Assembly (NCBI GenBank): GCA_017506865.1
Contig: JAFCMP010000121.1
Span: forward strand, 1 to 64,000
Length of the DNA stretch: 64,000 bases
Direction of reading: 5' to 3'
Origin: Tribonema minus
Taxonomy: Eukaryota > Sar > Xanthophyceae > Tribonematales > Tribonemataceae
This document shows positions 7,104 through 58,438 of this stretch, one piece after another. The translations under genes and the position numbers were made by a program. Every line of letters starts with the position of its first letter. Position 1 is the first letter of the stretch. The notes below the pieces were generated by a model, which ran no database searches, had not been told where the DNA came from, and saw only the letters and a program-made list of their open reading frames with translations.

Positions 7104-10100
7104 CTAGAGCTCTGCAGCCGTGTGCTTTGAGGCTGCGATCAGGCCCGCTGTGCCCGCCCCCACAACCGCCACGACGACCAGCAGTTTCAGCAGCTTGACC
7201 AGCAGGTACATGAGGATGGAGGCCTCGCCGATGGTGTCCATCTGCAAAGCGGCGGGCAGGGGTGTGTTGAGAACTGTTGTGTACTGCTGCGTCTTTTCAA
7301 CTCACTGAAGTAATGGCTTGAAGTACAAGTTGAATCTAGCGTTGGGGCATGTGGAGCTGCTTGCGTTTACCTTGAAGAACTGCAGCATATACTGCGATGG
7401 GATGGCAAGTAGTGTCAAAAGCATGCACACAAACTAGTTGATAAAATGGAGCGATGAGCACGCGTTGGCACAGCAAGACCTTGACACAGCAGGAGCCATT
7501 TGAGAACAGACTGCAGCATCTGCATGAGTTGACGTGTGACAGACCCGTGGTTGATAGTCGGCACGCACCACACAAGGAACCAGGCGAAATCGCCGAAGTA
7601 GGCGAGCATTAGTAGACTATGTACACATGCACCGAGGAGACTGAACAAAAAGAGAACGGCAGGTCAGCCTGCCAAACTTGAACACAGCAGAGGTTGAAAC
7701 CCGATGCCTTACAGCACCCCAGTTTACGATGATTCTCATCTGGACAGTGTACACAAAAGTGGCAGGTGCGCCAGTTCACGATTATTCTCATTTTTACAGC
7801 ATGCACACAAGTGGCAGGCGCGTCACCTTGAATCCAAGGCGCCACACGCCGCCATGGAAGGCGCCGAACGAGAAGATCTGCAGCGGTGTGGAAAGAGGGA
7901 CCGCCGGCGACGCGCCCTTGGCCTAAGGCAGCAAGCGCACAAGCAGCGGCAGTTGAACATGGATCAGCGAAGAGCAGTTGGAGGTGTTTGCAGGCCCTTG
8001 AGGGCGCGTGCATGCAAATGCACATTCTCCAGTCAGTGTGTGCAGTTGTCGGGATGCAGTACCGTAAGCCTTACCCTGTCCCTGATGCCGCTCTGAGATG
8101 CTGCAACAACGTACTGGAACTTACTCGCTCACTACCCAGTTTTGTGAGGAGGAACCACCCATGAGCAGACAGCCTTGAGCCATGTGCACGTATGCTACAG
8201 GTCAGATCCGCGATGGCGTGTCCGCCGACAGTTTTGCATGCCATGTAAGCATCACCACTGTCCTGGTGGACACTCTTCGCCACGGCCGTGATGCGCCGCG
8301 CCCAACTCTGAAGGCGCTTTGCAAGCAGATGCGCCCATTCCACTGTGGAAGCGGCGACAGCAATGGCAATTCGGGGAGCCTGCTTTTGACGCACACTCTG
8401 GCAGGAACGCTCTCACCGCCTCGTCGACACATGACATCAACATCAGCACCACCAGCACCACCAGCAGCAGCACCAGCAGAATCAGCAGCAGCAGCAGCGC
8501 TCACCCTCCTGTCCGACACGTCGCGCAGCAGCAGCGCGCCCATGACGGCGTTGCTTGTCTCCTGCTGGAACACCTCCATGGGCCTGAACCAGTGCATGCC
8601 GCCGTACGCCATCGCAAAGAGGCGGTTGTGCGTGACGCTCGCCGTGGCGGTGCTCGGCGCAATGTTGGAGCTCACTGCGCAGCCGCCGCGCGCGCGCGCG
8701 ACGACGGCGCGCCAGTGCTGCATGCGCTTGGCGAGCGCGTAGTTGGGTCCTTGCCTGCGGCGGCGATATGCGTGCAGCAGAGAGCTTGTGTTGATGGGCG
8801 GTGGTGTGTGAGGCTCTGCAGGTTGCAGAGTCCGGTGGCTTGACCGTTCTGCAAGCGCGGCGCGACCTGATGTGCTCACACTGGCACCAGCGTTCGATGA
8901 CCTTTGATGACAGCCTAACCCTAACCTTAACCCTAGTTGGGCCTTGCCTGCGCGGCGGCGGCGTGCGCGCAGCAGAGATATCGTTTTGATGGGCGGTTGT
9001 CTGTGAGGCTCTGCAGGTTGTAAGGTCCGGTGACTTGATCGTTCTGCAAGCGCGGCGCGACCTGATGTGCTCACACTAGTACCAGCCTTTGAGGACCTTT
9101 GATGACGGCCTTAACCCTAACCCTAACCCGAGTTGGGCCCTTGCCTGCGCGGCGGCAGCGACGCAGCAGACAGCTCGTTTTGCCGAGCAATGATGTGAGG
9201 CTCTGCAGTTGCAAGGTCCTGTGGCTTGACCGCTGTGCCGAGCAAACTTGAACAAGGCAGGATGTTCACACTACTACCAGTCTTTTACGACGATTGTGGC
9301 AGGGCGCTGCGCATGCGGTGGCTCACCGGCCCACAGGCATCGCGCGCGACGACGGCGGCGGCGCTCCCGACTCACTCAAAGACTCAGATTGAGACTCATC
9401 ACCCGCACCTGTTGACGAGCCCGTCCACCAGGTTGTCTCCTCGGGGCCCTTGACAGTGACTCGCAAATCACTCAAAGACTCAGACTGAGACTCATCACCC
9501 GCACCTGTTGACGAGCCCGTCCACCAGGTAGTACGTCTCCTCGGGGCCCTTGACAGTGACTCTTGACTCACTCAAAGACTCAGACGAAGACTCATCACCC
9601 GCACACCTGTTGACCAGCCCATCCACCAGGTAGTACGTCTCCTCGGGGCCCTTGACGGTGAGCCGCCCGCCAAAGTTCGGCCGCAGCGGCCCGAACCAGA
9701 ACAGCGGCGTCAGGCGCAGCAGCGCCGCAAAGGGGGAGGACAGGGGGGAGTAGTTCTTGGCGGCGGCGGCGCGCGCGTCGGCCGTGGAGACGTGTATGTC
9801 CGTGGGCGTGCAGAGGTACGCGGGGGTGACCGCGGGGTGCGCGGCCTTGTCCTCGGTGAGCCCCTAAGCACAGTGCGGGGGGGCAGCGAGGCGGGGGTGG
9901 TCGTGGGAGTGAGGTGCGACCGCGGTGCGCAGCGGCGGACGAGCCAAAGAGGGACGATGGCAAGGGATGGACGCCATGAGGGGCGACCTCAAGTGTGCGG
10001 TGCGGGGGGGGGGGGAGGCAGCGCTGCGAATGCGACAGTGACTGTACGACGCGCGCGCGCGCACCTGCAGATGAGCAGTGCAGGCGGCAGCGCTGCTGGG

Positions 10101-13100
10101 CCATGGGTTCAGTGATGTGTCGGCGGCAGCTGATCGTGTATGAGTCACTGCAGTGCAGGCAGGGGACGACTGCGACTTTGCGTTGTGGCGTACCTGTGGC
10201 AGTGCGATGCGGGTCCGGGGCTTGTTTTATGAACAACGAAGTGGACATTAATGCAAATGCGCATCATGATGCTGGCTGAAACGGCAATGCTATCCTGGGC
10301 AGCGGACGTCGCGACTGCACGTGCATGCCAAACTTCAATTTCAACCCTAGTGAGTTCGCGCGCCCCATACATGGCCCTCCATACAGTCACCCTGATCGCC
10401 GCTCTCGTCGCTGCGCTTGATGGTAAACCGTGTGCACACAGTAATGCTTGCTCTCATGGGCAATGTGCACCGCGCGCGACCGTGCGCCGTCGCACAAGTG
10501 CCGCGCATCAACGCGCCCGCCTCGACAACGCGACGCACATACGCCACGAACCTCGAGACGCGAGGGCCACACGGAGGGGCCTCTATGAGCGCTCGTCGCT
10601 ACCGCAAGCCCATGCGCGCATGCACTCGCACCGCCGTTGCCGCTGCTGCTGCATGTCGTGGCGCGCGCGCCGCCAGAGCGTCATTGTCCCGGCAGCTGCA
10701 GCTGCTGCTTCGAAGCAAAGGCCACGAATGCCGGTGTGCCGCATCCAACAACATCACGCACACCGTGATCAAGTACGTACTTCAAGGTATAACATTGAGT
10801 ATACCCATCCGACAACCGTACACACCTCGTTCCAAGCACGTACTTCAACGTACAACTCCAAAGTACACGTCGCGCACACCTTGATGATGGCGTCCATCGC
10901 CAGCGACACGCGCACGTGCAGCTCGCCGTCCAGGTACGCGTACGCCCCCACCACCAGCGGCTTCCCCGCGTGCGTGCTCCGCAGCCAGTCCAGTATCTCC
11001 GGCGTCTCCGTGAGCAGGTTGCAGCCCGCAACCCCCGCAATCTGCTCGTCCGTCAGCCCCGCCGTGTCCCCCTTCGTGGGGAACGTCATGGTGCCGCTGG
11101 AGGCGCGCGCGAGCGCCAGCAGCGACGTCCAGATGTGCGGCCTGTCGAGGTCGACCGCGATGACGTTCGCGCCGAGCTCCAGCAGCAGGCGCAGCGGGCC
11201 CATCGCGGACGACGCGCCCAGCAGCACAAAGTACTTGTCGCTGCGGCGGCGGCGCGCGGCGCGTGTGAGAGAGGGAGGAGGCGATGGCGCAGCTGAGTCA
11301 GAGGCGGCGGCGGCGGCGGCAGCAGGGCGCTCTTGCGCGGATCGCAGTTTACCGGGTTGCATGAGGTACAGTGGCGGAGTTGGCTCCATGGTCACGCATG
11401 GGCGCTGCGCGACCATGCGCGTGTGTACATACTGGTGGCGCAGGCGGCGCATCGCTGACACCACACATGTCCGGTGGAACAGCGTACTCGCCGTTGCGGG
11501 CAAGTGCTGGAGAGCGCACGCAGCGCAGACGCGCAGTTGAGAAAGGCGAGTGCCAATCGTGACGAGCGTCACGACGTGAGCGCAAATACCAGGTGCAGGC
11601 CGCTGCCTGTCGCGAGTGACATGCCGCGCACAGCACAAGAGGTGCTTGTCGGCGCAGCAGTGGCCCACGTGGGGTGGCAAGGTGCAGGCAATAATGACGC
11701 AGTCGAAATGTTCTGACAAGGTACAACAGATAAATGTGCACCAGCACATGGATGGTCTACTGCGCTAAGCGTGCTATTCAAGAGGCTGTACTTGTACTTG
11801 TACTTGTCATAGAGCTCCTTAAGTAGCAAAGTTGGAAAGTGATGATTGCTACTGAAAATTGCTGTGTACTGTGAGGGACACTGGCAGCATCGCGTTGATC
11901 AGCAGTCACTTTGCTTGAGCGCTGCTTTCAGAACTGATACAACGTACACTTAATCTTCAACTGTGCTGCAACTTTGACTTTGAATGGTGGAGCTGTGAGC
12001 ACTTGGCGACCGCAGACCATGGACTGCCTGTTTACTGTTGGAGCGCAGTGGCGGGTACAGCTGTTGCGCGCTTCTGACCGTTTAACAGCTGACAGTAAGG
12101 GCAGTTACACTGTAGATGGACTCCAGCGCCATTCACTTCATGCAGTGCAACGCTGGTGCCAGTTTCCTGTTGCTGTCACCTTGACATCTATCTCTAACGG
12201 TGTACAGGAATAGGCTCAATAAACAGCCCGCTAGTGTGCCACGCATCCCAAAGACCTCACTAGACACAGGTTCATCTATGGCTCATAGTAGCCTGGGTGC
12301 ATACGGAAGTAGGACACAGAATCCGGGACGCACAAGTGTGCTTGCCACCGTAGACACGGCGGCAAAGAGTGCATCACTGGCATGCAGACGAGCGCGCCCT
12401 ATGACTGACACATGGTCACACAATTAACTTCGAGTTCTTTCATGAACAGGGTCACCAATGTGACGACTCAACATTAGTTATGTATAAGTGTGCGCCTGAC
12501 GCAGGGAACTCGACTTATTGCTTGAGTTTGCAGGACGCGAACTGCCTATGTTAGCGTTATGCTGGCCACTGACTACTTGATTTGCGGCAGTATGCTGCTG
12601 CTTTGCAACTGGCGCTCATCGAGTGCAGCCAGCTGCCTTCAAACTCACACGTCGCTTGGCCGTGCGCACACTGCCTTAGGGTTAGGGTTAGGATTAGGGT
12701 TAGGGTTAGCGTCACGCGCCTCATCGCCCCCCCGAACACCCCCGGCACCACCGCGCACGGTGGCCGACACGCCGCGACCAAAAAAACATCAGCGGCCTGG
12801 CCACGTCCGTCTCCGCCCCCTCGCCTGACGTCACGCCGCCCGTCCGCGCGCATCAGCATGAGAATGGCGTCGGCCGATACACGTGACGCACTGTCGATAT
12901 CGGCCGGCCGGCGCATGCGACGCAAAGTCGACATTGGGCGGCCGGCATCAGCGCCCGGTTTCGCCCTCTCACCTCTGAGGTCGCGCCACCCGTCCGTGCG
13001 CAGGATTGTGAGGATGACCGACACACCGCGGCGAAATACACGTCATCAGCCGGACGACATGAAAGCATCAGTCAGCCGACCATGGCCGTTTCCGCCTTGT

Positions 13101-14677
13101 CTCACCTGAGGTCGCGCCACTCGTCCGTGCGCATCACGGTGAGGATGGCGTCGCCGGCGCTGGGCTCGATGGTTCCGTACTCCACCCAGCGCACCACCTG
13201 GCGCTCCAGCTCTCCGCCCTCCAGCACCTTCCCCTTGTACGGAATCTGGGGGCAGCGAGAATAAACACGTGCCAGCGGGCGTGAGGCTTGCGCGCTTGTG
13301 ACGTCAATGCAGCGGGACAGAGAGCCGATGTTGCAAGACTCGAACGTTGACTTTCCCTTGTACGGCGTCTGGAGGCAACAAGCGGGCTTCAGGCAGGCAG
13401 GCAGATGCACCCGTATGTGAGGTCTAGCAGCGGGAAATGGAGCTGCTGAATGTGTCAGTGTTCGTGATACTGCCGCCATTGAGGTGTGTGTGGTGGTGCC
13501 CGTGATGATTGTATCGGCGGTTGGGATGCTGCCGCCAATGAAATTGTGGTGGCATCACCAGGGGGTATCCCGGCGACCAGTGATGGTGACCAAGCTAATG
13601 AACTGCTCACTGACGCTCGTGGATGCATGCGTTTGCTGCTGTATTCCCGTCGTTTGTGCAACGCTTCAAATTAGCGCAGTGTCTGCATCCACAGAGGCTA
13701 ATTTGAATTGGAAGGAGGGCGGTTTGCACTTCACCAATTGTTGATGACATCACGAGGGGCTCCTGAAGTTCTGCATGCCATTGTATTTTCCAGCAGCAAG
13801 GTGTTGGCTCGCAAAAGCCACCTAACAGCTCACTGATTTTAAAATGGCACAGAGGCTCAGTAGCTAGTGTTCTAGGACCGCATCGCCTAATGGAGCCCCT
13901 TAGTTTATCACCTCTCGAATCTGAACCATTACCTGATGCTCCGTTGCAGTGACTAGTGCGTCCCAATAGTGTATTACAGCATTCTCTAGTGCTTCACCCG
14001 AAATGATACATGCACCTGTCGAAGGCTGACATGACAGCACATGATATATGGTGAACTACACGTGTCGTGCTGCCGCTCACCCTCAGAGGCGGTGGGGTCT
14101 CGGGCCTCGGCACGCTGCCGGTGACGGTGGCGGTCTTGAAGGTGCTCTTGATGGTAGCCATGGCTGTGGACAGCGGCATCGTCTTGCCATCCTTGATGAA
14201 CTCGAAGTTGTCGTGCACCCACTGCAGCCCTGCCTCCGCAGCGGTGACAGCGCCGTCCTTCACCTCCAGGCACGCACTGACGTGCCTGAGCAGGTACTTG
14301 CCGTAGTTCTTGCGCCAGTTGCGCTCGGCGTCGATGGCGGCCGCCTCCTCAGGGCGGATAGCCCCCGAGGCTGCCTTCAGCGCCGCCTGAGGAGCAGGAA
14401 CCAGATTGCAAGGAATTTTTGAGGCACTGGGCAAGCAGGCTGAACACACAACTTCAAGCTGGTGACAGCATGTCCGGGCGTAAGAGGCTAGATTGAAGCC
14501 TGTTAATGCTGCTGGAAAGCGGCAACAGCAGCTGTCGCACAGTGCTGCACAACATGAAGGTTCCAAAAATCATGTTACCTTGTTGGCGTAGGTCGTGGAT
14601 CTGTCGCCCTCCTTCTTGCTGTTGGGCACCAGAGGCCACTGGATGCCCGCAGGAGGTCGCCTGGGTGGGGGAGGCAT
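7104..14677 (-). CDS. Rossmann-fold dehydrogenase-like protein, C-terminal membrane helix
   Basis: The eight minus-strand exons are 14677-14579, 14386-14081, 13245-13106, 11240-10880, 9863-9607, 8754-8505, 7877-7827 and 7241-7104. All borders are GT-AG and the phases match throughout, giving 533 residues from an ATG in a Pro-rich start (MPPPPRRPPAG) to TAG. Residues about 183-196 read DKYFVLLGASSAMG, a nucleotide-binding beta-alpha-beta start, followed by GANVIAVDLDRP. Later conserved-looking blocks are YYLVDGLVNR, YALAKRMQHW and AMAYGGMHWFRPMEV. The last exon ends in a hydrophobic helix (about 497-523; MYLLVKLLKLLVVVAVVG) and a short polar tail. From memory, proteins of this layout occur as conserved unknowns in algae and related protists; the reaction is unknown. 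A further small exon between exons 6 and 7 cannot be excluded. Introns are large and full of repeats. Confidence 0.8.
7242..7826 (-). other. Intron 7 of the Rossmann-fold gene
   Basis: The intron holds hydrophobic open stretches on the minus strand (for example MLAYFGDFAWFLVWCV near 7600), but joining exon 7 straight to exon 8 keeps the frame. A short tandem-like pair containing AGTTTACGATGATTCTCATC / AGTTCACGATTATTCTCATT lies near 7720-7795. Confidence 0.4.
8430..8499. repeat. CAG/CAC-type trinucleotide microsatellite
   Basis: An imperfect (CAGCAC/CAGCAG)n array lies immediately downstream, in transcript orientation, of the exon 6 donor of the Rossmann-fold gene, so it is intronic. On the plus strand it reads as runs of CAGCAGCAG with CACCAG variants. 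Confidence 0.8.
8741..9300. repeat. Three ~195-bp tandem repeats spanning a splice acceptor
   Basis: Unit starts are at 8741, 8935 and 9131, each marked by AGTTGGG..CCTTGCCTGCG. The first unit begins inside exon 6 of the Rossmann-fold gene, so its 3' splice site and first exon bases are present three times, twice as intronic copies. Two of the three units are preceded by telomere-like CCCTAA runs (8914-8934, 9110-9130). Other shared strings are GAGGCTCTGCAG and CAAGCGCGGCGCGACCTGATG. Confidence 0.85.
9370..9661. repeat. Three ~97-bp tandem repeats spanning a splice donor
   Basis: Three copies of a unit contain ACTCAAAGACTCAGA, CCCGCACCTGTTGAC and CCACCAGG..CTCCTCGGGGCCCTTGACAGTGACT. The last copy overlaps the 3' end of exon 5 of the Rossmann-fold gene (exon end at 9607), so the coding end and donor site are echoed twice inside the intron that follows. 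Confidence 0.88.
12676..12712 (+). repeat. Interstitial telomere-like TTAGGG array
   Basis: The bases are TTAGGGTTAGGGTTAGGATT followed by more TTAGGG units, ending in TTAGCG. The array lies within intron 3 of the Rossmann-fold gene. TTAGGG is the telomere unit of many protists, animals and stramenopiles, so this supports a non-plant, non-chlorophyte origin. Confidence 0.85.
12821..13165. repeat. Three copies of the exon 3 donor edge
   Basis: The coding end and donor of exon 3 of the Rossmann-fold gene (13106-13165 on the minus strand) recur at about 12969-13020 and 12821-12885, sharing the pattern CACCTGAGGTCGCGCCAC.CGTCCG.GCGCA. Both echoes are intronic and diverged. A separate echo of the same exon's acceptor (CCCTTGTACGG..TCTGG.GGCA) lies at about 13350-13380. 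Confidence 0.8.
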
Positions 14678-23534: not shown

Positions 23535-26192
23535 ACGTTAGCTGTTTGTCTGTTCTGTTTTGCGCCCTATTGCGTGCCTGTATGCCATGGCGCTGTTGAT
23601 GCACATTTTATGGAGGACATGATCGCGTGCTGCAATGCCCTCGTGCGTTTTCAGCAAGTGTGTGAGCTGCACCGCCATTGTCAGCGCTCAATGAAGAATC
23701 AGTGTTGCAGGGCTCTGTCTGGAGCTTCCTAAAGTGTACTCTTCACAATGCTTTGGAGCGCGTCACACACTCAAAACTGAGGCGCTGAAGAGAGTGTGCA
23801 AATATTTACCGGAGTTAACTTCACATTTGTGTAGGTGCAACCACTATTGAACAGGGATGCACTGTTAATTGCTGCAATGCAACCAGCACCTAATTTTCAT
23901 AATATGAGAACACACCAAGCATTGGCTATGCCGCCAGCTGTGAGGATCTACGCTGTTTTCCGCGACCACATTGCATCATTACCATGGTCACATCCCCCAC
24001 AAACCAGTTTTCTTGGCAGTACCCCGTCCGATCGTTGCAACCAGCAAATACAATGGGACACACCACACACGATAACGACTCCTTCGACAGCATGCCACGT
24101 GTGTCCCCCAACCAACGGTTACGTAACGGTTGACCGTTCAGTGAGCTCGGCCGCCGAGCGGGACAGGAGCGATCACCATACTCGCACGGGCCTCAGAGGA
24201 GTCGAGCAGCGGGAGTGGGTGTCAGACCAGCGGCGTGTTTGGCTTCCGGTGACAGTGATGTTGCGTAAATGAGCCTCTCAAAGAGGGCATTCGCACCCAC
24301 GGCCTTGCTCCGTGTCAGCCCTGATTTCCCACCGGTCTTCTCCTTTGAAAGCGGAGGCACCGAGTGTGCCTACTTGTTGCCTCCTTCCAAGCCTGTGTCG
24401 AGTCCCTGGGGGTGGGACGGAGCAGATTGGAGCAGTGGCTTGGAGCGGCGGCGGCTATGCGCACTTGCTCTTATGCGCACTTGCTCTTAAGCGAGTGTCG
24501 CCTTAGCGCTTTTGGGAGGGTGGAGGGGGGGATGGCTCGCCAGGACTTACGCATGCGTGGAGATCTGATTGAGCCGATGAGGACGTGAGCGGCGACTTTG
24601 GAGCCAGGCCTTGGGGGGGACAGCGCGCTGTGGACTAATTCCATCCGCTGCTTGCTACCTGTGTTGTACCCTTCCCTGTGTACCGCTTGCGCATTCGCCC
24701 GCCCTGGTGCCTAACTCATGCATGCAGTGCTATGTAGCAAGGACGTTGTGTTGCAGTTTCGTTTACCCCCGTGCAGAAACTACGGCGACTTCTGCCCCAC
24801 ACGAATCCGGGATTCCGCCATGGTGGCGCCCGGAGAAGCGGCTCCCTGCCAGGGGGGCAGGTCAGTTTATCAGCCAGAGTACATGCTCAACTGCTGAAAC
24901 TCTTGTGCGCTTTGACTGCTGAGGTGTAGCGCTGGTAGCAACAAGGTCGGCTGAAAGCCATCACTTGTTTTCCTTTTCTCGAACAACTAAACCAGTTCTT
25001 GATGGCCATTTGAACCCCAGTGCTCATCTCCCCAACCTGTGCTGCCACTCACGCCTCTTGTCTGCTGTTGTCTGTGTTTGTCTGTTTCTCTGCTCTCATG
25101 GATTGAGACCACCTGGGCGGCTGGAAGCGCGATCGTGTCTGGCAGCAGCGCTTGCATGCTGGGACAGGCATGAGGGGCGATTGGCTCATTTGCTCTGCGC
25201 TTTGAAAGCAGCAAGTGCACAAACGGGTTGTGTGGTGTCTGTTGTAATGTAGCACAGTGTGAGCATTGCACATCACTGGTGCCAAATTTTAGTTGTGGCT
25301 GTGATCAAGGCTTGTTTGAGAGGCATGCAGCGGTGTGGCGCCAGCTCCTGTATGTAGCTTTGGCGAACTCTGCTGTTGTCGACAACCTGGGCCAAAACAC
25401 AATGCAGCGTTTTTTTTATTCGACACATGGTGGCTGATTGGTCTGCCCTTTCTTTTGTCATGTCCAAGTCTGTTTCAGCGCATGCATGCTGTCGATTCTG
25501 TGATTCTAACTGTACTGCAGGAGGCATTGTGCAGCGTCCTAGTTCACTTGGTGGTTCATCTGTACTGCAAGAGGCGTTGCGCAGCATTCTGGTTGAGCAA
25601 ATTTTTGAATGATGTGCACCATCATTGGCCGATTGACCATGTGGCCTGCCATGAAGTCACGTGCCCTTGTAGGTGGTCTGCGGCAAGGGCTCACTGCACC
25701 TTGGTTAATGTTTGTATGCTAGCTCGATGTGCAGCCAGATGATGATGAGATGTCCGGATGGCGTGCCTGCTCTCTCAACATTGCCTCGAGCCTGTCGACG
25801 TGTCAATTTGGGTGCCGCATTCGCTCAGCATCAGAACAGAGGCTGCCAGGTCTCATTGCTGCTTGTAATCACCGTGCTTGAACGCCATGTACGCCTACAT
25901 GACTGCTTTGTGTGTGTGCCGACCATATTGCACGCGCAGTACCCACGCAGAGCCACTTTGACCAGGCTGTTGCGACGTATCCAGATGGCACTTGAAGAAG
26001 GCTTTACAACAGTACATTCAGTGCAGCATACGGCAGACTTGTTGACCGGGGGTCAGGTCTGTCAGCTGTTGAATGAAAGCAGCTAAAATGACAGTAGAAT
26101 GCAGCTTTTTGTGAGGGTTCACTTGTGAGAACCTGAACACAGCGCTTGAGAGATCTGGCTGGGCAGTGCACCTTGACACCTACACGACAAAG
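23535..26192. other. Gene-poor region, no gene recognised
   Basis: Base composition is more balanced here and the frames are short (at most about 145 codons, 23835-24272), without motifs or consistent splice structure. Small repeats occur, for example GCGCACTTGCTCTTA twice at 24468-24489 and a TGTACTGCA.GAGGC pair near 25511 and 25560. I see no RNA gene. Confidence 0.4.
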
Positions 26193-26608
26193 CAGAGTGC
26201 TTGCTTCCTTATTGCATGTTTTACTGCTGGCAATATGAATGAAATGCATATTCAATTGATGTCATTGATGCTGGCACAGGTCTGAATGCCGGCGCTGCAT
26301 GGTGCAGACAACTTAATGCTAAGATGCCAGGTGGCATTGCCAGCTACTTGCATGCGCCATAGTCTCTGTATGGGGAGTATATGCTGCCGTCCACGGCAGA
26401 CAGAGTGCTTGCTTCCTTGTTGCATGTTTTACTGCTGGCAATATGAATGAAATGCATATTCAATTGATGTCATTGATGCTGGCACAGGTCTGAATGCCGG
26501 CGCTGCATGGTGCAGACAACTTAATGCTAAGATGCCAGGTGGCATTGCCAGCTACTTGCATGCGCCATAGTCTCTGTATGGGGAGTATATGCTGCCGTCC
26601 AGGGCAGA
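26193..26608. repeat. Tandem duplication, 2 x 208 bp
   Basis: Copies 26193-26400 and 26401-26608 differ at only a few bases (for example CTTATTGC against CTTGTTGC, and CCACGGCAG against CCAGGGCAG). The near identity implies a recent event. It lies about 150 bases beyond the end of the phosphatase gene and has no coding content. Confidence 0.93.
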
Positions 26609-26763
26609 CAACGTGTCCACCTTAACAGATTATTGATGTTGCACATGCACAAACAGCACAAGAACACTAGCTGCTCACAATGCATAGGCGCACAGGTGAT
26701 TGACAACACTGCGCAATGGTGCAGAAGAGGCAATTGCTGGAACATGATGATCAATCTCACGTG

Positions 26764-28925: not shown

Positions 28926-31900
28926 ATGCTCTTGTGTAGGCCGCACGATGTTGCAGGCTTGCGCACTTGGCTCTCATCAATATGCAGACTCGCCACTCAC
29001 TCGCAGAAAATTATTACACCATTGCCGCTTTCCTGCCCTTGCTGTCACTGCAGGGCCTGCCGTGCCGCCGTGAGCACGCAGACCCGCGGCCTCAAGGTTG
29101 GAATCATTGGCGCTGGCCGCATTGGCCGCGTGCACTTAGAAACCTTGGCGTCTGTGCCAGGTACGCATTGGGTTGACGTTGCTAAATCTTTGCGAGACAA
29201 GAGAGCCCAAAAGCTTGGATGCCGTTGTGACTTCGTGGCCGTTGTAGGTTTTCTCACAATGCCACAGCGTTGTTGCTGACATTTTGCAGCATACTGTGTG
29301 GTGGATTCCACAGCGACACCTCACCTGGTGTGAGTGCAAAGAGCTTCGAATGGCAATTATCTCTGGGTTGGGCTTGGCAGTTTCAACTCTGTTGCCCTTG
29401 GTAACATGCTCACCTTGCTGATATTAATCACACCGTGCAGGCAACATAAATTACATTCCGCTGTCACAACCTGATAGACCAATAAATTCGGTTGCATTAC
29501 GTAGCTGTTGCACGTGTGAGTTTCTCACAGCGTGCAGACCAAGATTCAGGTAACTGCAAGCATGCGCTAGCAACCGCGCATCTAGAATCTGGTAGAGATG
29601 CGCTCTTAGGATCATGCAGCTGCACTCCTGAGCGTGCGTTGCAAACATTTCACCGAGGCAGACCGCCAGATGCTGACCATCTGACACTGCCACCGCCTCG
29701 GCCGGGCGGCTACTGTATCACACGCAATCTCACCCACAACACCTGCATCTTAACCTCTACACTCACTGTGCCCCTCGCAGGCGTCCAGCCCGTCATCATC
29801 TCCGACGTCGTCGAGTCAGTGCTCAAGGACGTCACCGCAACGTACGGCGTGCCCAAGTATACCATGGACGCCAACGAGGTCATCCACCACCCCGACGTCG
29901 AGGCGGTGTGGATCTGCTCGCCCAGCCAGTTCCACGCGGACCAGATCAAGGTGCGGAGCGCTGCTGCGGGCGGCGCAGGACTAGGGTTTGGGGGTTAGGG
30001 TCTGGGGTCGGGGGGGGGCGGCGAAGTGGCAGGAATGAGGCACGCGCGCACAGCTATGGCTCAGCTCGCATTTGCGCCTATGCATGCGCTTCGTGCTGTG
30101 TTGAAGTACGCGGGAAAGCAGCCAAGTAGCGTGGGCACGACGCGCGGTGGCTTTACCCCGCAGTCATCTCCGTTAGGCGCAGCGCCAGCGGAATGCGCAC
30201 TACGTTGCGTGCCGGCGCTCCCGCCTCTTGCTCGTCGCCCCGCTGCGTGATCATCTGCGCCTCACCGCGGTCGTCACTCCACGTAGCGTGCCTCCGCAGC
30301 AGCTGGGCGCAGCGTTTTGAAGCGCGATGTGTGCATGTACCCACATGGCCCAATCGTGGTGCGTCCCCACTTGAAGTAGTGTGTGTCACGAATGTTGAAC
30401 TCACGGCATGTCCCCCCCCCCCGCCAGACGTGCGCCAAGGCGGGCAAGCACATCTTCTGCGAGAAGCCCATCGCCACGGACCTCGCGGGCACCATTGAGG
30501 CCATCAAGGTCGCCAAGGACTGCGGCGTCAAGCTCATGACGGCCTTCCAGAGGCGCTTCGACCCCTCCTTCGCGCGCCTGCAGAAGGTGCGCGCTGGAGC
30601 GGCGGCGGCCCGTGCAAGTCTCGCATGATGTCGAGCCGGCACTGTATGTATGAGTGTGGTCGTGCGTCGCCGCCACATACATGGCGTGGATACGTGTTCA
30701 GCTGCGCGAATTGCCTTGACAACGGGTGCTGGGTGGGGCGCTTGCATCACGCGCGCCTTCAACAGCCCCGCGCAGTGCGTTCCTCGCGCAGGCCACATTT
30801 CAAGTCGGTGTCGCCTTGATTGCGCCAGCGCTCATAGGCACACCGTCCACGATACCATGAGTAAACCGCATCCTTTCTATCATGGCTATCGCCAACAACA
30901 GCAGGCGCAGGCAGCGCTCGCGCTCAACACCACCGCTGCTGTCACAGCAAGTTGCCGGTGCTTGTGCACTGTCAGCTGCTGGTCAGCTCTGCCCCACCTG
31001 TTTGGTGCGCCTGCTGATGTCCCCATCCTGCTAACACACACATTGTAAAGAGTCGAATGTGTGACTGCATGATCCCCGCACAGGTGATCGCTGCTGGAGA
31101 GGTGGGCAAGCCCGTGAGCGCGGTGCTGCAGTCCAGGGACCCAGGGGCACCCCCCTTTGCCTACGTCAAGGGCGGTGGCGGCCTCTTCAAGGACATGGCC
31201 ATCCACGACCTCGACATTGCGCGCTGGCTCATGGGCTCCTGCGGGAAGAACGAGCCCGTGCAGGTATGTAAAATTCATGTTGATGTTGGTTTCCTTGAAG
31301 TTTTGTCCGCGCCGCGGTCGCCAGCGGGCATGCATTGTGCAGTTGCGCGTGCGCGCGGTGACACTGAAAACGACACCAGCTTTGTGCAAGCAATATTCTA
31401 CAAAACACCAAGGCTTTTAAAGTCAGAGCATTCTCGCTGCTGGAGCACCAACACAAAACAAGTTGTTGCAACAAGCCCATATCAGCGGGCGTCGCAGTTA
31501 TTTTAGCATGGCCATCGGCGATGGCAATGCAGACTGGGATCACTGATTCATCTATGTCCTCAGGCGAGACATCTGCTGCATTTGGGGCTTGCTAGCTGAT
31601 GGTGGTGCTGGCAGCGTGCACGTTGCAGCTGAGAACGTTCACAAATGTTGGAGGTCAACCCTCAGCTTCAACATTCCTTGGTCCGGAAGCAAACATAGGC
31701 CAGAAGGGGCTATGCAATTCTCATGCGTTGAGTGTCCAGCTTGTGATTTCTGATCTGTTTACCTGCCGGCTGTCATGTTGCGCGTTGAGTGTCCAGCTTG
31801 TGATTTCTGATCTGTTTACCTGCCGGCTGTCATGTTGCGCCCAGGTGTACGCCACTGGCGCCTGCAACGTGGACCAGGCGATCCTGGAGCTCAAGGGCAG

Positions 31901-48791: not shown

Positions 48792-51700
48792 ATGCACCAC
48801 CCGTGCCAAGTGGAAGCCCAGCAGCAGCGCGCGCTTGAGAACCATGCAGAACGGCCTCGACGGCGACTTCGTCTAGCTGCCCTGGTTGCACTGCCTCTCG
48901 CAGTTGTAGTATTATGTGGAGTAGCCCTCAGCACACGCGGCGTCACCGGCAGCACACAGCAGGCCTACAAGAGCTCTGATCTGACCGTACAAGACGCTCG
49001 GATTCTGCGGGAACTGGCTCCCGACGACGCCACCGCTGCCCCCACAGGCGCCCCTACAATGGCTCCCTCTGCGGCGCCTACAGCCATTGCTCTGGTGCCA
49101 CCGATCAAGGCCATAGTCAAGCCGGCACCGCGCGGACCCCTCATGATTGGGCTGTCGGACAACATGCTGCCCGTTGCAAGGCAGGCGGAGCTCGGTGCGA
49201 AGTTCCAGGCGGTCGTCAAGTTCCAGAGTGTACAGAAGATGAGGTGAGAAGAATAACTGCATGGAATGTGGGCGTACACACTGAGAGATTACAAGAGCAC
49301 AGTAATCCACCTTTTAGCTAAACAGTAGACTTGTCAGAACCCATGTTGCCTATATGCTAACCTTTAGTGTTGCCTGAGTGCTAACTCAGCAGGCAGCGCT
49401 TACGACCCGTGCAGAGCACCCAGACCTGGCCATCAGGCTCGCTGCCTATTGCAGTGCGCACGGCAGACCATTGCATGGGCATAGTGTGTGCGAACGTGGC
49501 CGTCTTGCTTGCGTGAAGCCCTTGCCACCTCAGTCCAACAGTAACCCATGCAGCCTCAAGTGAATGTAGATTTTTGTGTGAGGTGCCTGACCTTCAGTGC
49601 CAGACACAATGCGGCGCGCGTGCCAGATTGCGCACGGCCGCTTGCGCACTGAACGCCACTCATGCGACAGCGCGCTGTACATTTGCTGAGGGTTTTCTCT
49701 GTTGTGCTTGTGATCCAACGCGTTGTGCGGCGCGCGTGCCAGATTGTGCACGGCCGCTTGCGCACTGAACGCCATTCATGCGACAGCGCGCTGTACATTT
49801 GCTGAGGGTTTTCTCTGTTGTGCTTGTGATCCAATGCGTTGAGCCAATTGCTGTCAGTCCCATGCAGCCTGTCCAATCCGCGCTGCAGTTGACGATCCAG
49901 CGTGTCCGCCAATTGCTAATTAGACCTTCGGCCCGCCACTGCCTCAGTCAGACAGCAGCAGTTGCTCACTGCGCGTTTCCTTACGTCCCTCTCGCCGCTG
50001 TTGCCTCCCGCGATAGGTACCCCTTCCTCGTCAAGCCGCACCTGGACGCCGGTTTTCAGGTACACACATGCAAACCCCTTTAATATGCACGTTTGCAGTC
50101 GGAGGCGAAGGGTATGTTTGCTTGCTGCCCATGCGACAGCGTCACAACACAGTATGGCCAGGCGCGAATGAGCTCGAGGATCTGCCCTCCGTCTTTCCGC
50201 AGCCTCTTGTTCGCATGCGCGCGTCATGAGCGGCTTGTGACACCAGACGGCTTCGACAGCGCGGCGCGGTGCACCTGTCGCACTGCACCGCCATGATGAT
50301 CATTTTTCGCAAATAACACCCTTGCGCTGCCGAGCAACGCATTGGCTGACGCGACGGTGCTGCTGCTGTCTGCAATGCCGCTGCGTCTGTGCGCCGCAGT
50401 CTGTGATGGTGATGGAGTTCCTGGATGCCACGCGCCACACCAACCTGAAGCAGATCGCCAACGGCCTGTACGACAAGTACCTGTACAAGTTTGTGGACGA
50501 GCTCATGGATGACGGCAACAGGGAGGTCTGGGTCAGGTGAGCGCTGCTGCATGCTTGGGGTTGGGGTTAGGGTTTGGGGTGAGGATTAGGGTTTGCGGTT
50601 GAGGGTACGCATTGGTTCGCGTGCATGCGCGCGTCATGCTGCGCAATGCCCTGGGGCTTGCGCTCCGTGCATTTCCATTGTCTACAAGTGCACTGTGTAG
50701 AGGTGTCGCTGAGCAAGGCGGCAGCGCATCGCGCCAGCGCGATGACGTCAGAAGCGGCGTGCATGATCCCAGCTGCGATAGCTCCATCGCGCGTACATTT
50801 TCTTTATGTGCATGCCGCAGCGGCACGCAGCAGCCGCATCACGACCATAAGACACCACTGGACCTATGTACAGCTGGTGTGCGGCTGCGAAACGCAACGC
50901 CCTCCATTGGATGCCGCGCGCTCAGCGGCGTCCGCACAACTCTAACTACCTACATACCTCCGGTCCTGTTGAGCACTGCTGTGCTCACCTGTGTCAACGC
51001 TCCGCGTGCCGCCGCTCCGCGCGCGCCAGGCCGCTGCACGAGTTCAACGGCGACTGGTACCCGTGGGGTACGTACCGCGGCGGCGACAACACCAAGCGCA
51101 TGTTCAAGCGTGCGTGGCGCCACGTGCACTGGATCCTCACCAACAAGGGCGCCAACATCAAGTTCCAGGTAACTCACCAATGTTGAAGATGAGACCACAC
51201 GTTGCAGGTGAAGGTGAACGATGCGCGCATGGCTCCAGTGATCGCGTGCTGCATGTAGCCTGTGGTAATGCGTGCTTTTGCCCTACATATGGCGTGACCT
51301 GTGCGCATGAGAATCGTGCCTCACCGTAGACATCGTGGGGCGTGAAACCTCGTGTTCCTCCTGCTATGCGTAGTGTCTGCACGAGATTGTATTTGCGTAT
51401 GCATGGACGCATGCTTGTGCAACATGCACGCTTTACTTGAAGTAGACGCCTTTCCACCTCGCTCAGATGCAAATAAGGCCCTTCTTGAACATGAAGTAAA
51501 CCATGACCTGCGCCGCCTCTGCGCACCGTGAGCTGCACCAGCCCCCCTGTGTCACCGCACTGCCAGCCGGCTCCGCTCACCTTTCCTGTGATGCCGCCTA
51601 ACCCTAACCCTAACCCTAATCCTGACCCTAACCTTAACCCTGACCTACCCCTAACCCTGACCCTAACCCTAAACGGTTGCGCAGCTCGCGTACAACTGCG

Positions 51701-53674
51701 TCAACGGGCAGAACGACCAGACGACGCCGTTCCTGGACTGGTGGCCGGGGGAGCAGTACGTGGACATGGTGGTGTGCAGCGGCTACAACCGCGCCGGCAG
51801 CGACGCGGACCACCAGCAGTGGCTGACGTTCCCGGTGAGACGCGCCGCGCCTCACACCGCGAGACAAACCCTTCTACACAAGAGTGATCATTGTGGACTT
51901 GCGTGAGAGCGCCTGCTGCCGCGACGGCGCCACAAGAGTGCTCATTGTGGACTTGCGCGAGAGCGCCTGCTGCCGCGACGGCGCGCGCGTGCTGCAGGAT
52001 GCGAGTCGGCCAGTCTAGTGGTGCTGCGCGCGTGCACGCGGCTGCGCCAACCCTAACCCTAGCCCTAAGCGCGCGGGCACGTGTCGCACACGGCGCTGAG
52101 CGCTGTCAGTGCACAAGTAGATGGCCGCAGCTAGTTTGTCGTTTCCCAGCGTCGGTGCAAATCCGCAAAGCAGTGGCCTCGACATGCTTACTTCAAACTT
52201 CTTTGAAGTATGCATGTACATGTGACGGCAGAACGGGTCAGGCAAGAGCGGTCGCGGCTAGACTGCGGCATGCGTGAACACATAAATCTGTATTGGCATC
52301 CTACACACTCATCGGCACACGCATTGCAAGTGGGACATGCTACCATATATATGCCTGCACCGCTATGGAGCTGCCCGGGGATGGAGCACACAGCGCGCAT
52401 CGCAGATGCAATACTGCCAACCTCACCCCCGCCTGCCCCCGCCGGTGCCGTCACTGCAGGAGGTGTTTGGCGCCGCGTACGAGCAGATGCTGACGCTGCC
52501 GGGCATGAAGCCCCTGGGCGTGGGCGAGACCAGCTGCAACAACTTCGAGGATAACGACAAGGTGACTCTCCCACTGCCACTATGAAACAAAGAACTCTTG
52601 CTTGAGTGAGTGAGCACCCCACAGCGCTGTGTGATCGGGTCCCCCATTCGCACCTGGAAGCCAAGCACATGGTATGCACTGTACCACCAGAAACTGACGC
52701 GAGGCACCTCATGTGCGCCACACACGCATCCAGTAGCTCAGCAGGGCTGTCGTCTACTTTTTTAGGTAAACTTTGCAGTTCGAGTTACCTCCCTGACCTA
52801 CACCGCCTTTCTCACCTCTGTTTGTTTTACTCCCCCAGGCTCAGTGGATCAGGGACGCCTTCTATGACTTTGTCAACACCTACCCGCGCATCGAGCATGT
52901 GTAAGTGTCAGCAATGAGCGGCGGCGGCGTGCACGCGCGTGATGCCTGCCAATTGCAATGCTTGCATGCTGCAACGTGCAATCCTTGAGCTGATCGCTGG
53001 CGGAGTGAAGCTCAGCTCTTTCAATTGGGAGTAAAGCCCTTGCAACTGCAGTTGCAGCAACTGCACTCTCAAGAGAATGCCAGGAACTGTTGTGGCGTGC
53101 TCAACATCATGACAACAGACTAGCGGTGGCTGGTCGCGATACGGGACAGTGGTTTCGCACCAAAGGACTATATGTGTCTGGTGGCAACATTCCTGACGCA
53201 TGTTGCCCCCAACGCCACCACCTCGCTGTACTACTTGTGTGCAATCGGTCGATGTACAAGATGATGGCAACATTCCTGACGCATGTTGCCCCCAACGCCA
53301 CCACCTCGCTGTACTACTTGTGTGCAATCGGTCGATGTACAAGATGATACATATGGCGTCACGCAACGCAGCGCTCCGGCGCCGCTGATGTCCTCACCGA
53401 AAGATGACTGCATGCTGAACTTCAGCCTCAACTTCAACCTCCTGCCCCCCCCCCCAACCGCAGCACGTGGTTCCTGCAGAACAAGAACGACGGCCGCTGG
53501 GACCTCAACTCGCCCGAGGAGATTGCGGCGTTTGGCGAGTCACTCATTGAGTACACCCCCCAGAACATCCCCCAGGACCTACCCCCCCTGCCCCCACAGG
53601 CGGACATCAACGGTGACGGCGTAATCAACGGCGACGACGCTCCGGTGGAGGCGCCCCCCGACCCGAACCTGTAA
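48792..53674 (+). CDS. GH26-type endo-mannanase-like protein 2
   Basis: Eight exons, 48792-49243, 50017-50059, 50400-50536, 51030-51168, 51685-51834, 52460-52561, 52839-52900 and 53464-53674, give 431 residues. Lengths and phases of exons 2, 3, 4, 6 and 7 equal those of gene 1, so the two are tandem duplicates. A basic stretch, then a membrane helix at about 28-47 (LAALVALPLAVVVLCGVAL), suggests a type II anchor or uncleaved signal. The catalytic acid/base is E215 in RPLHEFNGDWYPWG and the probable nucleophile is E330 in PLGVGETSC. WWPGEQYVDMVVCSGYNRAG is shared with gene 1. The C-terminus keeps one Ca-loop motif, DINGDGVINGDDAP, and stops 10 residues later without the long tail of gene 1. 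No defect is seen. The substrate is inferred from the family only; other clan GH-A glycanases are possible. Confidence 0.87.
49611..49842. repeat. Tandem duplication, 2 x 116 bp, in intron 1 of gene 2
   Basis: Copies 49611-49726 and 49727-49842 are nearly identical (GCGGCGCGCGTGCCAGATTG to GTGATCCAA.GCGTTG) with three or four differences. Confidence 0.93.
50547..50600 (+). repeat. Degenerate telomere-like GGGTTAGGG repeats
   Basis: GGGTTGGGGTTAGGGTTTGG, then GAGGATTAGGGTTT, lies just after the exon 3 donor of GH26-like gene 2. Confidence 0.75.
51598..51672 (-). repeat. Telomere-like CCCTAA array before exon 5
   Basis: About 12 units of CCTAACCC with variants (CCTAATCC, CCTGACCC, CCTTAACC) end 12 bases before the acceptor of exon 5 (51685) of GH26-like gene 2. 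The C/T-rich strand probably doubles as the polypyrimidine tract. Confidence 0.9.
51878..51985. repeat. Tandem duplication, 2 x 54 bp, in intron 5 of gene 2
   Basis: ACAAGAGTG.TCATTGTGGA and the sequence that follows repeat with a period of 54 and two or three differences. A short CCCTAA array (52048-52068) follows. Confidence 0.88.
53182..53347. repeat. Perfect tandem duplication, 2 x 83 bp, in intron 7 of gene 2
   Basis: TGGCAACATTCCTGACGCAT to GTCGATGTACAAGATGA occurs twice, at 53182-53264 and 53265-53347. Confidence 0.93.
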
Positions 53675-57252: not shown

Positions 57253-57365
57253 GTGTATGTAGGTGCGGGGGTGAGGGTTACGCCCCCCTGCCCCCCAGCC
57301 AGCCACCATCTGTATGTAGGTGCGGGGGTGAGGGTTACGCCCCCCTGCCCCCCAGCCAGCCACCA
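57253..57365. repeat. Short tandem repeat preceding the 564-bp unit
   Basis: TGTAGGTGCGGGGGTGAGGGTTACGCCCCCCTGCCCCCCAGCCAGCCACCATC-type units of about 55-58 bases occur at 57256-57310 and 57311-57367. The second one is the start of the 564-bp duplication. Confidence 0.88.
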
Positions 57366-58438
57366 TCGTGTCCAGTGCGGCCTCACCAAGTGCTCTGCTT
57401 CCATTTGTAGATTAGCATTGTAGTGGGAAGCGAGCCAAGTTAGCTGCGGAAGTAGAACTTGTGCTGCAGAGTAGTACCATTCAGCACAAACACTTTGGAA
57501 GTAGACCTCCCTGCGTAGAGTAGTTCCCTCTGCGTACGGTCTTCACCTTGCCGCGGTGCAGAGGCATGGCACATTGGTGTCACCAAGCAAGACCATTAAC
57601 GTGTGCGCAGCAGCTCACAGCAATGTGTAATACAATTGTGCGACCTTTTTGTTGAAATTGAAACAGGCAGCAAACCTTGCACGTTCATGTTTTGTGCAGC
57701 GACTGTGATACAAATGTGCAATCTTTTTGTTGGAAAAAATTGGAAAGGGAAGGAAAAGCTTGCAGGTTCATGTTATGTTTTATGCGCGTTTGTGTGCCTG
57801 TACTCCAGTAGTACTGTGACAACTCAATACACTATTACTAACACTCGTTGCGTTTTTGTGATGTGGCTTCGCTGTGTATGTAGGTGCGGGGGTGAGGGTT
57901 ACGCCCCCCTGCCCCCCAGCCAGCCACCATCGTGTCCAGTGCGGCCTCACCAAGTGCTCTGCTTCCATTTGTAGATTAGCATTGTAGTGGGAAGCGAGCC
58001 AAGTTAGCTGCGGAAGTAGAACTTGTGCTGCAGAGTAGTACCATTCAGCACAAACACTTTGGAAGTAGACCTCCCTGCGTAGAGTAGTTCCCTCTGCGTA
58101 CGGTCTTCACCTTGCCGCGGTGCAGAGGCATGGCACATTGGTGTCACCAAGCAAGACCATTAACGTGTGCGCAGCAGCTCACAGCAATGTGTAATACAAT
58201 TGTGCGACCTTTTTGTTGAAATTGAAACAGGCAGCAAACCTTGCACGCTCATGTTTTGTGCAGCGACTGTGATACAAATGTGCAATCTTTTTGTTGGAAA
58301 AAATTGGAAAGGGAAGGAAAAGCTTGCAGGTTCATGTTATGTTTTATGCGCGTTTGTGTGCCTGTACTCCAGTAGTACTGTGACAACTCAATACACTATT
58401 ACTAACACTCGTTGCGTTTTTGTGATGTGGCTTCGCTC
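57311..58438. repeat. Nearly perfect tandem duplication, 2 x 564 bp
   Basis: Copies 57311-57874 and 57875-58438 differ at about one base (CACGTTCATG against CACGCTCATG). Each contains an open frame of about 90 codons starting MRSSSQQCVIQLCDLF with an internal echo (VIQLCDLFVE, VIQMCNLFVG). I do not think it is a gene. It is either a very recent duplication or an assembly artefact. Confidence 0.93.

Follow-up and report, generated by a model that had tools for sequence, protein, structure and literature searches.

Inward copies of exon edges in Tribonema minus introns: tandem duplication sheltered by splicing as a probable route of intron lengthening

Intron growth is usually ascribed to transposons and small indels. 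Zhuo and colleagues reportedly described human introns derived from tandem arrays in 2007, and Gao and Lynch are said to have dealt with internal gene duplication in 2009. A tandem duplication across an intron-exon boundary has been described for a potato RdRp gene, where, in the case as outlined there, it led to a new intron (PMC4974935). The duplications in T. minus that we report here likewise cross an intron-exon boundary and copy splice signals; unlike in that single case, as far as its outline goes, the outer edge appears to be kept and the copy absorbed into an existing intron, and between about a sixth and a fifth of splice sites are concerned (PMC4974935). Introns made from exon sequence are also the subject of the AGGT duplication model, with its Drosophila cases, which shares with our material a tandem duplication whose insertion is neutralised by splicing; unlike in the model as summarised in those accounts, no creation signature is found in the 151 introns surveyed here, and it is existing introns that appear to grow (PMC3443670, PMC2891723).

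Three other described systems touch on parts of the pattern. In human DNA, small tandem duplications have been attributed to CST-guided Pol alpha-primase fill-in followed by end joining, and ours resemble them in being direct tandem copies, of which seven pairs, too few to decide, would be compatible with near-blunt joining; the insertions in that summary are short (<100 bp), whereas the quartiles of the distance from an edge to its nearest copy are 135 and 246 bp here (PMC8355091). Direct repeats of 4-30 bp common to the 5' and 3' borders of introns, read as insertion scars in the outline of PMC11782384, share with our copies their location at intron borders, whereas ours are longer and repeat a single border within the interior of the intron to which it belongs. 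Introners, as characterised in PMC9860276, place copies of a single element in many genes and so are, like the duplications here, a lineage-wide source of intron sequence; unlike them, the array units of the intron described below, both of which were searched, are locally unique. Our search of the open literature, which leaves subscription journals mostly uncovered, found no report of genome-wide intron lengthening by inward copies of an intron's own edges.

The window, that is, the whole stretch of 64,000 nucleotides analysed here, covers the initial 64 kb of a 229-kb contig (assembly 158.2 Mb, 554 contigs), with a GC content of 51-63% per 2-kb bin; Rfam and tRNA searches of the window returned no matches. 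On its minus strand, intron 5 of one gene (8755..9606, 852 bp, placed by the gene model and alignments) separates exon 5 (9607..9863, real donor edge between 9606 and 9607, placed by the ab initio model and by homologue continuity over the junction) from exon 6 (8417..8754, real acceptor edge between 8754 and 8755, placed by the ab initio model and by homology at QGPNYALAKR, with a 3' end given by the model only). Two arrays on the same strand, identified by TRF and alignments, take up 721 of the 852 intron bases by TRF coordinates. Array A (9364..9661, TRF score 473) consists of three tandem copies, spaced 102/96 bp, of a unit made of the last ~55 bp of exon 5 and ~42 bp of intron, and the real edge lies in the copy at 9565-9661. 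Array B (8740..9232, TRF score 674) holds 2.6 copies, spaced 193/197 bp, of a unit made of ~160 bp of intron end and the first 15 bp of exon 6, and the real edge lies in the copy at 8740-8915. The duplicated units thus contain exon and intron sequence across a splice site.

With a slash marking the splice edge, the minus-strand end of exon 5 at plus coordinate 9607 reads AACAG/gtgtgcggg. The first copy of this edge, hereafter an echo, is a donor at 9503..9505 (edge between 9504 and 9505, CAACAG/gtgcgg, minus strand), 102 bp inward, and the second is at 9407..9409 (edge between 9408 and 9409, minus strand), 198 bp inward; both, with exon-side bases 9505 and 9409, read CGTCAACAG/gtgcgggtg. They match the real edge at 87/92 and 84/91 aligned bases, with alignment scores of 150 and 125, whereas control sequences, here and below 500 per copy shuffled in 2-mer blocks, reached at most 24. 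In the exon part, the alignment of the real donor edge with echo 1 contains three differences, all of them silent third-position changes. At the other end, the start of exon 6 at 8754 reads ccgcag/GCAAGGACCCAACTA, and its minus-strand echoes lie at 8947..8949 (edge between 8947 and 8948, gcgcag/GCAAGG), 193 bp inward, and at 9144..9146 (edge between 9144 and 9145), 390 bp inward, with identities of 154/175 and 89/107 and scores of 229 and 87, the highest scores among their shuffled controls being 29 and 27. The initial annotation had described this intron as amplified inward from both ends, with two extra copies of each edge in units of 97 and 195 bp and CCCTAA arrays in the acceptor-side units. 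The two copies per edge are where it placed them, and CCCTAA/TTAGGG-type tracts can be read on the minus strand between successive array B units at 8914..8935 and 9111..9129; the spacing, at 102/96 and 193/197 bp, is not exactly 97 and 195.

The same gene offers a second example upstream. A minus-strand exon at 13106..13245 ends in ..AILTVMRTDEWRDL, where homologue P0001 reads ..WRDLSDKYFVLLGA.., and has its donor, CCTCAG/gtgaga, between 13105 and 13106. Two minus-strand echoes of that edge sit in the intron that follows: a near one at 12955..13016, 50/62 identical, with GTGAGAG intact after two extra bases, and a far one at 12783..12872, 71/89 identical, in which the donor GT has become GC.

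Five homologues (P0001-P0004, P0028; 58-66% identity) read VDG(L/I)V(N/G)(K/R)QGP(N/S)Y(A/I)LAKR over the exon 5/6 junction, and hence the outermost donor and the outermost acceptor give the conserved protein. Among named organisms, its best-matching relatives occur in Discosporangium (66% identity), Choristocarpus (63%) and Phaeothamnion (66%, covering 73% of the query). The earlier designation as a Rossmann-fold gene was not confirmed by Pfam, which yielded no family for the spliced protein or for homologue P0001, and nothing above the cut-off for five raw reading frames. As judged by matrices trained on the same genome, the three donors of intron 5 score 6.50-6.51 and the three acceptors 5.38-5.62, so nine junctions are about equally plausible by sequence. 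Their consequences differ. Splicing from echo donor 1 would lengthen the protein by 34 residues, in frame and stop-free, and the extension from echo donor 2 would run into a stop at 9495-9497, so that only the real donor and echo 1 are open; echo acceptor 1 would put exon 6 out of frame and echo acceptor 2 would hit a stop after seven residues, leaving the real acceptor as the only one that keeps exon 6 in frame without a stop.

How common such echoes are was assessed in 304 kb of the 158-Mb genome (the 64-kb window plus 240 kb), mostly from two contigs, C121 and C5, with an additional check sample of 22 kb containing kinase loci on other contigs, all from one genome. Gene models came from a self-trained hidden Markov model, run ab initio and trained on the same 304 kb, that called 411 exons with an AG/GTGAG-like donor and a GCAG/G acceptor consensus; it merged neighbouring genes and called many tiny exons. 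The thresholds for strong exons (score 15, length 50) were passed by 182, and 151 introns of up to 3 kb lie between such exons. Using the last 50 bp of an exon as query and a Smith-Waterman score of at least 44 as a strong match, we found a match in the exon's own intron for 37/168 donors (22.0%) and 21/170 acceptors (12.4%), whereas the same queries matched other genes' introns in 0.01% (donors) and 0.02% (acceptors) of cases; the reverse-complement control in the own intron, at the same score, gave 1/168 and 0/170. This is, on 304 kb, the scan that the initial annotation had proposed, and intron interiors there proved far more similar to their own exon edges than to those of other genes, which supports its suggestion that introns could grow in this way here.

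A second measure, a nearby BLAST pair covering at least 8 bp on either side of an edge, placed edge-spanning copies inward at 44/175 donors and 30/177 acceptors, and outward at 9 and 7. After removal of the 24/182 strong exons that are in part copies of other predicted exons, a filter that discards some true cases too, inward copies remained at 29/151 donors and 21/153 acceptors and outward ones at 2 and 1, or 50/304 inward and 3 outward for both kinds of edge. Duplication is not confined to exon edges, as 50-bp pieces of intron interior recur further in at 20/163 on the donor side and 9/165 on the acceptor side, and random positions are spanned by a nearby copy, in either direction, in 552/5265 non-coding and 102/1341 exon-interior cases. 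Nearest echoes are mostly 90-430 bp from their edge. The higher rate at donors than at acceptors (44/175 vs 30/177) is suggestive only (Fisher p 0.067). The contigs are unequal, with copies in any direction at 11/61 donors and 3/62 acceptors in C121 and at 38/114 and 31/115 in C5. An echo at some edge is present in 53/151 introns, and at both edges in 15 against 7.4 expected under independence, four of these 15 being shorter than 225 bp, where one array can span both edges. Nearby duplicates make up 19.6% of the bases in the 151 introns, and the median length of introns with echoes is 907 bp vs 624 bp without, a difference that is not significant (p 0.063).

The divergence of the copies indicates which of them is under constraint. 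The 131 edge-echo pairs that were aligned comprise 86 at donors and 45 at acceptors, those with an edge in common being non-independent. Mismatches in their exon part amount to 149/2003, 145/2004 and 300/2017 at codon positions 1, 2 and 3 (7.4, 7.2 and 14.9%), and in the intron part to 892/4919 (18.1%); the nearest echoes of 72 edges alone give 6.3, 7.2 and 14.9%, and 18.7%. A constrained real copy paired with a free echo predicts t, t, up to 2t and 2t, which a t of ~0.075-0.09 fits. Positions 1 and 2 lie somewhat under half of the intron value, as is to be expected of one constrained outer and one free inner copy; had coding constraint acted on both copies, far lower values would be expected at positions 1 and 2 than at position 3. 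The splice dinucleotides of the nearest echoes differ at 13/144 positions, again near t. Pairs lying wholly within an exon keep frame in 7/8 cases, five of them in one exon, and nearest edge echoes have in-frame offsets in 21/72, without excess over the one-third chance value. Edge echoes thus ignore frame while exon-internal pairs keep it, and inner copies behave as intron.

We propose that tandem duplications that cross exon edges are sheltered by splicing and lengthen introns inward, and we put the probability of this reading at about 0.78. Local tandem duplications at the DNA level, of roughly 90-250 bp, would be frequent in this genome. A unit crossing an exon edge would give the gene a second splice site of that kind, and in time a third or more; if the outermost donor or acceptor is joined, the protein would be unchanged and the extra copy, with its exon piece and splice site, would be removed as intron. 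The inner copy would then be free to drift, and through repeated rounds at both edges the intron would grow inward from its two ends. In intron 5, separate events at the donor edge and at the acceptor edge may each have left two extra copies. The spliceosome would mostly use the outer sites, and the duplication step is probably end joining at staggered breaks. In seven near-identical adjacent pairs, match length minus lag is 11, 3, 4, -1, 2, -11 and 0, four of the values being 0 to 4; these are compatible with near-blunt end joining of staggered breaks, seven pairs being too few to decide.

Known proteins provide a check on the exon models, in that predicted products of further echo-carrying genes line up with them through their echo introns. 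For a segment of CCT gamma, a gap-free alignment of 214 residues with 3iyg_G runs through three echo-carrying introns. A beta-adaptin segment aligns to AP-1/AP-2 beta chains over two echo introns, the alignment being split in two by residues that the model leaves out elsewhere. A DYRK kinase prediction aligns except for a glycine-rich insert within an exon, and a P450 prediction matches its Pfam family over positions 20-436 of 462. Splicing at the outer edges therefore gives normal proteins, which we count in favour of sheltered duplication. On five contigs other than the main two, kinase exons, picked by Pfam search before any repeat was sought, carry inward echoes at 3/8 donors and 2/6 acceptors (5/14 edges); this count, drawn from seven loci, leaves out L040 (no exon predicted), L036 (low-scoring exon), one plus-strand exon in L039 and the 2/16 edges lacking GT or AG. 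At L035 1268-1338 and L036 118-157, the next intron holds copies of kinase exon ends whose alignment ends before, or only just at, the splice site; these were not counted. Several points weigh against the proposed explanation: its edges were placed by an ab initio model whose training set was the same 304 kb, C121 and C5 differ in echo rate, intron interiors (20/163, 9/165) and random positions are duplicated as well, tolerance alone, with duplications placed at random, would leave fewer edge-crossing arrays than found, and intact echo sites are at most slightly weaker than the real ones, so that their score does not account for a preference for the outer site.

Several other origins of the echoes were weighed. 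The suggestion that the duplications could create alternative splice choices would have the echoes kept as alternative sites that make protein or expression variants, and it draws on the state of the sites: 71/86 donor pairs and 38/45 acceptor pairs retain an intact echo dinucleotide, the nearest intact echo equals or outscores the real site at 23/37 donors and 15/24 acceptors, and echo donor 1 of intron 5 would extend the protein in frame. Yet the 21/72 in-frame offsets show no excess, extensions both in frame and stop-free number 2/44 at donors and 6/28 at acceptors, codon positions 1 and 2 of the echoes are without special conservation, and a dinucleotide mismatch of 13/144, near the 6-7% at those positions, is that of a freely drifting copy; judged from such features of the sequence, alternative choice appears an unlikely reason for their persistence. 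Selection that weakens the echo sites was considered and set aside. Scored on the nearest echoes with an intact dinucleotide (37/44 donors, 24/28 acceptors), the effect is slight at donors (mean 5.38 for real sites vs 4.90 for echoes, Wilcoxon p 0.02) and not seen at acceptors (5.15 vs 4.97, p 0.76). It is very unlikely that intron 5 itself was born by tandem duplication of an exonic AGGT: tandem duplications are indeed frequent, with 64 non-overlapping arrays of period 30 or more detected by TRF in the 304 kb, but the donor edge fails to map onto the acceptor edge, 0/151 introns have a creation-like pair of edges, and no repeat family joins arrays A and B. Slightly less credible again is construction of the intron by a mobile element, an introner or a telomeric-repeat insertion. 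TTAGGG-type tracts do lie between the units of array B, and an 18-mer of this type has 5238 + 6236 matches in the assembly; against this, arrays A and B each match only themselves in a DNA search of the 158-Mb assembly that skipped simple repeats and very common words, and duplicated flanks occur at 3/23 telomeric tracts compared with 13% of random positions, a result for which we rejected the tracts as a general cause. Least probable of all is an assembly artefact, for although tandem copies are a known failure mode of assemblers, those of intron 5 diverge from the real edge by 5-20% and carry indels, and many loci on several contigs show this pattern too.

A reading of another kind adds to sheltering by splicing and does not replace it. 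A break-prone, or transcription- or splicing-linked, process may duplicate DNA preferentially at or near exons, with exon-internal duplications purged so that the survivors gather on the edges; we consider this a real possibility at somewhat less than even odds. It was set against a simulation in which duplications fell uniformly, exon-internal ones were purged, edge-crossing ones were kept with the outer copy constrained, and copies drifted and were detected by the same BLAST procedure. The genome (151 introns) holds 59 one-edge, 8 both-edge and 22 purely intronic arrays, the simulation (1888 introns, 12 runs) 356, 72 and 880, an odds ratio of 6.6 for one-edge vs intronic arrays, although faster loss of old intron-only arrays than modelled may inflate this ratio. 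For young arrays (at least 85% identity), the figures are 21 vs 15 in the genome and 176 vs 379 in the simulation (odds ratio 3.0, p 0.0017), but the conserved exon part raises the identity of edge-crossing arrays. An earlier simulation put inward copies at 10.2% of edges vs 74/352 in the genome. Inward coverage stays flat at 0.11-0.12 from the edge into the simulated intron and falls from 0.26 to 0.07 over 300 bp on the genomic donor side, but drops only slightly, from 0.18 to 0.10, on the acceptor side. Coverage by duplicates declines with distance from exons, being 23% at 1-25 bp, 18-19% at 50-300 bp, 7% at 0.8-2 kb and 2% beyond 2 kb, a trend clear in C5 but weak in C121 (8.8, 8.4, 4.8, 5.8 and 0%). 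The simulated unit lengths came from edge echoes, and errors in the ab initio gene models could explain part of the excess. The excess of arrays over the simulation, together with the fall-off with distance, is moderate evidence of a bias toward exons, or their vicinity, in where duplications begin. A count in 20 homology-aligned introns (20 edge-crossing and 3 intron-only arrays; 6 and 4 when young) was not used, its ratio being biased upward because the genes were already known to carry echoes; one of these 20 introns, 82053-84371, probably hides an exon missed by the model, as residues are skipped there in the alignment of beta-adaptin.

Some further features were recorded alongside. A 564-bp tandem duplication at 57311-58437 is 99.8% identical and hence very recent, and further near-identical pairs lie at 26183-26610, 31725-31840 and 53179-53348. 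In C5:381086-382252 (sample coordinate c5 181086-182252), a 72-bp unit is present in ~16 copies with 96% matches. Telomere-type TTAGGG tracts are scattered genome-wide; 23 tracts of at least two perfect units occur in the 304 kb, unenriched at duplications, and those of the window are at 8914-8935, 9111-9129, 12676-12709, 50555-50606 and 51597-51672. Two short RuBisCO large-subunit fragments, L028 (G000:C334:714136-714324) and L029 (C112:516888-517037), each with a stop codon and both on 2-Mb contigs, look like plastid DNA copied to the nucleus. An echo of a CCT gamma exon end at C5:353432-353552 (sample coordinate c5 153432-153552) was called as an exon, even though a stop results when it is joined to the exon before it; false exons of this kind may be present in automatic annotations of this genome.

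Inward copies of exon edges are frequent in two contigs and in a small check on five others. Growth by copied exon edges can here be counted intron by intron and dated by divergence. More tentatively than for the preferential start at exons, we suggest that hot-spot edges combined with sheltered duplication could be a main route of intron lengthening in this ochrophyte lineage, in which case intron length would track how many duplications an exon edge had survived, a large share of splice sites would have equally strong decoys next to them, and the spliceosome would have to rank these by position, not by sequence. The genome would also offer a natural experiment on splice-site choice, in that dozens of introns present at least two near-equal donors or acceptors of which the conserved protein needs the outermost.
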